Made by a program: the position numbers and the translations under genes | Assembly: GCA_903844155.1 (NCBI GenBank) | Contig: CAIMSU010000034.1 | Coordinates: forward strand, 1-61,782 | DNA: 61,782 bases | Origin: an uncultured Pseudomonadota bacterium | GTDB lineage: Bacteria; Myxococcota_A; UBA796; SXON01 | Direction: 5' to 3' | Notes under the pieces: generated by a model | Database searches by the model: none | What the model was told of the DNA's origin: nothing | What the model saw: only the letters and a program-made list of their open reading frames with translations | Shown: positions 498 through 2,752 of the stretch, one piece after another | Layout: each line of letters starts with the position of its first letter | Numbering within the stretch: the stretch's first letter is position 1

Positions 498-506
498 GCG
501 ACCGCC

Positions 507-889
507 TACTGGAGGTCCGTGCTCTCCAGGTAGGCCTTGACCTCGGGGTCCGAGATCAGGAAAAGGTTGACGCCGCCCACGATCATGCCGGGCAACCCGC
601 CAAGCAGGCCAGCAAACAGCTCAATCCCGCACGTCACCTTGATCAGCGTGCCGGAGCGCCCGGTGAGCGTGAGGACGCCGCTCACGATCTCGAACAGGCC
701 GACCGGAATCAGCAGTTAGGGGATGAAGCCGCAGATCATGAGCGGCGTGCCAAGCCCGAGCGTGAGCGTGGCGATCAGGCCCGCCATCATCGAGATCAGG
801 AACGAGGACAGGCAAATAGTCGGGAACTGAACGAGCCCCGAGATGATCCGTCGGACGCCGACGGCTTGGAGTTTTTGCGGTTTTTGCAC
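507..889 (-). pseudogene. Small multi-pass membrane protein broken by an in-frame TAA
   Basis: Read on the minus strand, this frame gives a typical hydrophobic small membrane protein, but a TAA at 716-718 interrupts it. Before the stop there are about 57 residues, including I-S-G-L-V-Q-F-P-T-I-C-L and L-I-A-T-L-T-L-G-L-G-T-P. After it come about 69 residues, L-L-I-P-V-G-L-F-E-I-V-S-G and then L-F-A-G-L-L-G-G-L-P-G-M-I-V-G-G, ending in LESTDLQ. Both halves are hydrophobic in the same frame, so a single nonsense change or sequencing error is the simplest reading. The start is unsure; GTG at 889 is the nearest candidate. I do not recognise the family. Unlike the UGA in the next gene, this stop is TAA and cannot be selenocysteine. 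Confidence 0.5.
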
Positions 890-1049
890 GAGCGCCTTGG
901 GTTCTGGAGGGGAGTATCCGATTCTGGAGGCGGGTGTGCGGGGCCGACGGGGGATGGCGAGGAGCCGGGGAACCTGCCACTCCGTCGGGTCGGGCGGGCG
1001 TCAGCTGGCTTCGCTGCAGACCGAGCGCAGCGAGCCCGCAGCAGCGCGA

Positions 1050-1117: not shown

Positions 1118-1981
1118 TTACCGCTCCCAAATCGTGGTCGCCGGGTACGTCTGTGAGAAGCCGTACCAGCGCCCGAAAATGCCCATGGCGAGCGGGAGAC
1201 GCACGCCGTCGACGTCCTTTCCATTGGCTTGCCACCGAGCGCCGCTGGTTGGGTCTACGGCATCGTCGCCCTCCAGGCGCACGCCCGGCCCGGGCAGGAG
1301 GTAGGCAACCGGCGCTCCCTGTTCGGCGTCCATGGCGACGAGAACGTCGTGGTCGCCGACCTTGTCCACGATCATGCCGGCATCACGCACTGCCTGCATC
1401 GGGAAGAACCGCGCCGCGGGGGTCAAGCCGTGGATGAGGTTTCGCTGGCCCTGCACGACGCCCAGACCGAGCATCATCTCGGGCAGTCGGCGGTCCGCGT
1501 CTGTCATGGTCCGTCGAAACATGCCGGGTAGGGTAGGCGGTGAGAAGTACGTTTCGAACCAGCCAAGTACGCGACGCCAGAGCGCGTTGGTGGGTGCGGT
1601 GATCGAGCCGTCGGGGTGCGCCGAGCGAAAGTTTCCGAACCGGGTGATCTCACTTGGGAGCATCTCGATCTGTGCGCCGGCGGAGGGCCCAAAGATGCAC
1701 TCGCCGGTGTAGTGGAGCCATTGGGAGTGGGTTGCGTCGTCTTCCATGACAAAGAGACCCTCGTAGAGGCCGGAGACGATGAAGGTGAGGGGCGTGACCT
1801 GGCCGCCGGCCAGGGTCAGCAGCGGGTAGAACACCGCGCTGCTGTGACAGGCGTCTCAGAAGGTGACGAGGATCTCGCGCTCCGCGAGCCGGTCCGAGAC
1901 GATGTGATGGGAGGCGATGTACCGGAGTGGCCACGCTCGCGCGCTGGGTCCGGAGGGTCCGGAGATCGTGACGGCGAGCAC
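1118..1981 (-). CDS. DUF3179 domain protein with in-frame UGA, candidate selenoprotein
   Basis: The frame after the stop (1834-1118) is a clear DUF3179 protein, with V-S-G-L-Y-E-G-L-F-V-M-E-D and Q-W-L-H-Y-T-G-E-C-I-F-G-P. The same frame continues upstream through a TGA at 1856-1858 into the expected N-terminal half: D-D-E-E-V-L-A-V-T-I, A-R-A-W-P-L-R-Y and I-L-V-T-F. The TGA falls where the family has the first Cys of CxxC (V-T-F/Y-C-P-x-C), giving U-D-A-C-H-S-S-A. A SECIS-like stem-loop starts 11 nt later. With UGA read as Sec the protein is about 287 residues from GTG 1981. No good start codon or signal peptide is visible, and CTG 1999 is an alternative. The alternative explanation is a nonsense mutation in a 5'-truncated pseudogene. 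I know no SelA/B/C/D gene in the window. Confidence 0.6.
1817..1844 (-). promoter_or_regulatory. Candidate bacterial SECIS stem-loop
   Basis: On the minus strand, CAGCAGCG (1844-1837) pairs perfectly with CGCUGCUG (1824-1817). Inside this stem, after one bulged C (1836), GGU (1835-1833) pairs with ACC (1827-1825), closing a five-base loop GUUCU. The stem begins 11 nt after the UGA at 1858-1856, and the apical loop begins with G about 24 nt after the UGA. Published bacterial SECIS models expect a hairpin just downstream of UGA with a G early in the apical loop. The match is by eye; no folding energy was calculated. Confidence 0.55.
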
Positions 1982-2752
1982 CTCCTCGTCGTCAGCCAGG
2001 TCGCTCTCGGCGCGACTGCGTTCCGCGGGTCGAGGGGGGAGGTCGTGGTGATGGACGTTGGGCGGACGAACCGGACGACCGCGGACGCCACGGTCACCGT
2101 GTCCGCGTCGAGCGGGGATCTGCTCGGGGCCGGGGTTGCGGCGGCTGACGTGGACGGTGACGGCGTGGACGACCTCATCGCTGGCGCGTCTGGAGTCCGC
2201 AGCACTGGCGCCGTCTTCGTGTTCCTCGGACCCGTGAGCGGCGCCGTCGACGCCTCGGCGGCGGACGTACGCCTGCTTGGTGACGGCGACAACACGGGCG
2301 AACATGTGGTCGTGCTCGGGGACACCGATGGAGACGGGCTCGGCGACGTCGGCGTCTGCAGCACGGCGTCGACGTGGCTGTCGGTGCTTCGGGACCCGGC
2401 TCGGGGTCTGGGTCAGCTCGCGGATGCCCCGCTGATCGTCCGACTCGACCTCGGACCGGGGTGCGCCGCGCTCGCGGGCGCCGACGTGGACGGCGATGGC
2501 CTGGAGGAGCTGATCGTCGGGACGGGCACGGACCCCGCGGCGCTCGTTTTCGCCGCGGCGGGCACGGGCACGCTCGGCCAGAGCGATGCCCTCGCCGAGG
2601 TCACCACGAGCGGCGCTGGCGACGCCGGGGGTTCGGTCGCGCGGCTGGCGGACCGGGACGGTGACGGGTCGGACGAAGTGCTGGTCGGCGGCAAGGATGT
2701 CGGCGTTGGCGGCGAGGCCTTGATCGTCCCGGGCGCGAGTCTGATCCCATGA
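1907..2752 (+). CDS. FG-GAP/VCBS repeat protein, 5' end uncertain
   Basis: The protein is built of FG-GAP repeats with Asp-rich calcium-type loops, for example A-D-V-D-G-D-G-V-D-D-L-I-A-G (about 2143-2190), D-T-D-G-D-G-L-G-D-V, D-V-D-G-D-G-L-E-E-L-I-V-G and D-R-D-G-D-G-S-D-E-V-L-V-G. Such repeats form integrin-alpha-like propeller blades, normally on secreted or surface proteins. No signal peptide is visible here. In-frame ATGs lie at 1907 and 2051. Repeat-like sequence (G-D-R-D-G-E-H-L-L-V-V) starts near 1960, antisense to the N-terminal part of the DUF3179 gene, so one of the two genes has probably lost its 5' end. The stop overlaps the next start by ATGA, so the two plus-strand genes are coupled. 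Confidence 0.6.
   Translation: MGGDVPEWPRSRAGSGGSGDRDGEHLLVVSQVALGATAFRGSRGEVVVMDVGRTNRTTADATVTVSASSGDLLGAGVAAADVDGDGVDDLIAGASGVRSTGAVFVFLGPVSGAVDASAADVRLLGDGDNTGEHVVVLGDTDGDGLGDVGVCSTASTWLSVLRDPARGLGQLADAPLIVRLDLGPGCAALAGADVDGDGLEELIVGTGTDPAALVFAAAGTGTLGQSDALAEVTTSGAGDAGGSVARLADRDGDGSDEVLVGGKDVGVGGEALIVPGASLIP

Follow-up and report, generated by a model that had tools for sequence, protein, structure and literature searches.

The DUF3179 locus

Close to one end of the window (the whole stretch of DNA that was analysed, 61,782 nucleotides), the minus strand carries a reading frame of the DUF3179 family with an internal TGA, and this frame abuts, head to head, a fragment of another gene. The features of the region are the following.

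1118-2023, minus strand: DUF3179 (PF11376) frame with a single internal TGA; the TAA terminator is at 1118-1120
1856-1858, minus strand: putative Sec-UGA codon, in the conserved Cys column of the homologues
1847-1849, minus strand: Cys of U-D-A-C, the second motif residue, in the translation with TGA read as U
1817-1844, minus strand: predicted bacterial SECIS hairpin, 8 + 3 bp with one bulged C and the loop GUUCU
About 2018-2050: apparent junction at which the 5' ends of the DUF3179 and FG-GAP frames meet head to head, both truncated
2048-2752, plus strand: fragment of an FG-GAP repeat gene (PF13517, PF01839), with a TGA stop in an ATGA overlap with the next gene

The original prediction, made from the sequence by eye, was that the DUF3179 frame crosses an in-frame TGA, with family-like sequence on both sides. 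This is borne out by the Pfam comparison, in which a single PF11376 match spans the TGA (2023-1202, 116.7 bits against a gathering cut-off of 27, E=1.7e-33, profile positions 14-267 of 292), and the part of the frame after the TGA is recognized even by itself (E=5.2e-17). Translated with a residue at the TGA, the frame yields one DUF3179 protein; under translation table 11, it is split at this point. No matching model for the frame was found in NCBIfam, and Rfam at the gathering threshold gave no match within the window. Apart from its 5' end, the frame is open for ~280 codons, and it is the sole DUF3179 gene detected in the genome. Its GC3 is 0.83, compared with 0.81-0.90 in the neighbouring genes, and this resemblance in codon composition does not favour, although it does not decisively reject, a foreign origin of the piece.

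Selenocysteine (Sec) is the 21st amino acid and is inserted at in-frame UGA codons, at which standard annotation stops or starts Sec genes. Because annotation breaks at the UGA, the window gene would be called as a 238-aa protein that lacks the active site.

The UGA codon in the homologue alignment

The residues around the TGA of the window gene read V-T-F-U-D-A-C-H, such that the UGA would stand for the first Cys of a CxxC motif, as had been predicted, and the identity of this column was followed in two sets of genes. The first consists of DUF3179 genes collected among relatives and within the phylum, and among the 58 aligned genes of this set, the column holds 39 Cys, 13 UGA, 5 Asp and 1 Ser; one more gene (L087), beyond this alignment, also has UGA. 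The second set was obtained by scanning named genomes with a profile from the alignment of the UxxC subfamily, which yielded 49 loci, 48 of them with the motif; a back-translation scan in which the window protein was the sole query had recovered no relatives. In this second set, the same site is UGA in 41 of the 48 genes and Cys in the remaining 7, and in none of the 48 does a UGA occur at another position of the domain. Thus, in both sets, the position of the TGA is one where homologues carry Cys or UGA, and the second Cys of the motif is invariant throughout the UxxC subfamily.

Because five of the 41 UGA genes in the second set repeat loci of the first, the two sets give 50 distinct UGA genes, the window gene included, from Myxococcota, Desulfobacterota, Planctomycetota, Gemmatimonadota, Chloroflexota, Bacillota and other phyla. 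The nearest relatives found are 33-38% identical to the window protein, with none closer than ~38%. Sec is strongly preferred in the HH...UxxC subfamily (41/48 among the genes found), and this recommends the subfamily for assays.

The hairpin downstream of the UGA

The stem with 8 + 3 bp and a 5-nt loop starting with G, noted in the first reading of the sequence, is indeed present at 1844-1817; it begins 11 nt after the UGA and places the loop 23 nt from this codon. The hairpin is stable, with an RNAfold energy of -18.8 kcal/mol (z -4.73, and 0/200 shuffles as low), and similarly stable SECIS-like hairpins at the same spacing follow only 7 of the 1176 TGA triplets on both strands of the window. 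The published limits for bacterial SECIS elements (bSECIS) are a loop of 3-9 nt, an upper stem of 4-16 bp, an MFE of at most -7.5, a G in the first two loop positions and a spacing of 16-37 nt, and the window hairpin falls within every one of them. The expectation that the sequence after the UGA would fold like a bacterial SECIS has therefore been realized.

The evidence from the relatives is comparative. Across 38 distinct relatives with UGA, pairing reaches 96.5% in a 6-bp stem (alignment columns 16-21/27-32), both sides are changed in 30 cells, and the covariation of 0.409 compares with 0.165 in shuffles, of which 0/500 were as high (n=38). When the stem is slid along the alignment, pairing goes down to 31-52%. 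The commonest loop is GGUCU (22/38), and the register of the window stem is near to, but different from, that of the relatives. In the Cys and Asp homologues, the stem after the site pairs much less than in the UGA genes. The stem score is higher in UGA genes than in Cys genes (Mann-Whitney p=1e-5) and the folding z is lower in UGA genes than in the non-UGA homologues (p=6e-4), but both tests count related sequences as independent, so that these p-values are only a rough guide. Together, these genes make up a large set of covarying DUF3179 SECIS elements that spans many phyla.

The Sec machinery of the genome

The search for the Sec machinery, which had been proposed as a check of the prediction, found all of it in the window's genome, namely selA (441.5 bits), selB (279.3 bits), selD (416.6 bits) and tRNA-Sec (65.6 bits with Rfam; tRNA-SeC(tca) according to ARAGORN), each over its cut-off. 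These genes come from a draft assembly of 375 contigs with ~5% estimated contamination. There is also a second selD-like gene (G000:C341:141632-142537; 224.5 bits, over the cut-off). Across the sampled genomes, selA is present in 10 of the 11 with UGA and in 42 of the 53 others, and it separates carriers of UGA from carriers of Cys poorly, as selA is found in most genomes of the sample.

The 5' end of the gene

The relatives in the subfamily usually start 75-80 codons before Sec. In the window, in-frame ATG, GTG or TTG codons upstream of Sec occur only at 41, 149 and 312 codons, with none between 41 and 149 codons in this assembly. A start at 41 codons would cut into the DUF3179 domain, and those at 149 and 312 codons lie within sequence antisense to the plus-strand FG-GAP gene. 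The window DUF3179 gene thus appears to have no credible start, its first 30-40 codons being missing in this assembly. The other side of the junction is truncated as well: the FG-GAP fragment has 234 aa and no N terminus, whereas the open frames around its homologues span 549 aa or more, and there is no space for a promoter between the two 5' ends (about 2018-2050). In frames other than that of DUF3179 upstream of 2018, where a frameshift might have placed it, the N terminus of the relatives was not clearly matched, and a search of the genome for another copy of the junction region was negative, the other matches being short and all inside the FG-GAP part.

The junction lies 2 kb from the contig end. 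The remaining sequence up to this end includes a DUF2752 gene (PF10825; 45-494, plus strand) and a small membrane-protein-like frame (~498-900, minus strand) that is broken by an in-frame TAA at 717-719, which is a second hint, within the first 2 kb, of damage or of an error in the sequence.

The truncated, head-to-head arrangement suggests either a rearrangement or an assembly join. Accordingly, the missing codons imply that either the contig is misjoined near 2020-2050 or this copy was damaged by a rearrangement. Under the second option, the gene could be a decaying pseudogene, a descendant of a Sec gene that has lost its 5' end by genomic rearrangement and whose product is no longer made. 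The absence of start codons in the interval where one is expected, the truncated FG-GAP gene and the TAA that interrupts the neighbouring small membrane ORF all fit this possibility. The state of what remains speaks against it: the long open frame has a normal codon composition, and the UGA, the second Cys, the hairpin and the conserved residues are all intact. Given that the assembly is in 375 contigs, a misjoin near the contig end is an easy alternative, and on balance decay of this gene seems rather unlikely. It would, in any case, be compatible with the Sec reading because the UGA would still be a Sec codon by descent. More generally, since the loss of the start may be an assembly fault, it concerns this copy and not the nature of the UGA.

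Probable Sec insertion at the UGA

Taken together, the family homology, the placement of the UGA, the hairpin with its covariation in the relatives and the Sec machinery in the genome form the basis for concluding that the window holds a gene for a UxxC DUF3179 selenoprotein, in which the UGA at 1856-1858 very probably directs SECIS-dependent, SelB-dependent insertion of Sec. The candidate selenoprotein of the original prediction is thereby supported on each of these counts. That the product of the window gene itself receives Sec can be inferred from the same evidence, and the result supports the use of Sec in the lineage of this organism.

The view that a random nonsense mutation or a sequencing error produced the TGA in a Cys gene, with no Sec insertion, could draw on the other in-frame stop within the first 2 kb and on the fragmented state of the draft genome, but it is highly improbable in the face of 49 other genes with UGA at exactly this column, a hairpin matched at so few of the window's TGAs and a complete Sec machinery. 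A general reassignment of UGA in this organism (e.g. to Trp or Cys), which would make a SECIS unneeded, agrees with the frame staying open once a residue is assigned to TGA but can be dismissed almost entirely, given that the TGA at 2750-2752 ends the adjacent FG-GAP gene in an ATGA overlap, that the genome has tRNA-Sec, selA, selB and selD, and that the hairpin covaries in the relatives.

In the favoured scenario of Sec insertion, the ribosome would reach the UGA at 1858-1856, SelB with Sec-tRNA-Sec would bind the downstream hairpin at 1844-1817, and Sec would be inserted in place of termination. The exchange of Cys and Sec at this site and the CxxC spacing suggest that U-x-x-C serves as a thiol/selenol redox centre; the pair would most likely alternate between its reduced form and a selenenyl-sulfide during a redox reaction of the thiol/selenol type.

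The predicted fold

The AlphaFold2 model of the window frame (1121-2023, minus strand) is confident, with a pLDDT of 89.6. In a VIA-align comparison, its first domain (residues 22-138) gave Z up to 9.4, and the matches listed are of the Rieske type. Other comparisons do not point the same way: Foldseek with the window model returned no significant match (PetC3 at E 0.14), hhalign against 27 Rieske domains gave probabilities of 0.2-2%, with no profile similarity, and neither the Rieske ligand motif CxH...CxxH nor similarity to PF00355 was found in the window protein. A tentative and somewhat doubtful idea is that DUF3179 has its UxxC centre in a Rieske-like beta domain whose iron-sulphur ligands were lost and which became a thiol/selenol or other metal redox site. 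If true, the architecture would depart from the thioredoxin-like ones that are usual among selenoproteins.

Variation in the family and comparison with known selenoproteins

The redox site varies within DUF3179. A group of genes (L026, L027, L031-L035, L043) has UGA at the aligned column with the second Cys absent, in the motifs UPLV, UPIV, UPYI, UPVV, UTNL and UAIV. As the reviews list only UxxC/T, this lone-Sec variant of DUF3179 may be undescribed. In five homologues (L020, L025, L037, L039, L045), Asp replaces the redox Cys or Sec (DPLT and similar motifs), so that redox activity does not extend to the whole family, and the replacement suggests that these proteins may form a non-redox branch. 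In Paludifilum halophilum (L116, 3290-4183), a Cys DUF3179 gene is followed immediately by another copy that is split by a stop codon at the Sec site, probably a tandem Sec paralogue. The flanking genes of 18 relatives, inspected by eye, include no shared neighbour, and hence the gene context gives no function for DUF3179.

The family itself is known to include selenoproteins. Two reviews (PMC9312934 and PMC13188914) include DUF3179 in their lists as a selenoprotein family of the UxxC/T type, and the latter credits a 2007 study of the Delta 1 symbiont of Olavius algarvensis for the DUF3179 selenoproteins. The '(seleno)protein' label that the original prediction mentioned for this family is genuine, a public record reading 'DUF3179 domain-containing (seleno)protein'.

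Compared with the bSECIS consensus, the window hairpin is alike in loop, stem, spacing, the G at the loop start and energy, with no notable difference. The Cys-containing DUF3179 proteins of the CPLCGT type have the domain and the position of the redox motif in common with the window protein but differ in that the site has a Cys codon and is not followed by a hairpin, and they show WHE..ND where the UxxC subfamily has HH..AQGELAG. Among UxxC members, the window gene comes from the same phylum as that of the Polyangia MAG G365 (Myxococcota). It differs from the known DUF3179 selenoproteins in its UDAC motif, in the limited identity to the nearest relatives found, in the slightly shifted register of its hairpin and in the 5' end that is missing in the assembly; it shares with them the PF11376 domain, Sec as the first residue of UxxC and a bacterial SECIS directly downstream. 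With DUF3179 already listed among selenoproteins, the window gene is thus a solid new example of these proteins, not a new kind.
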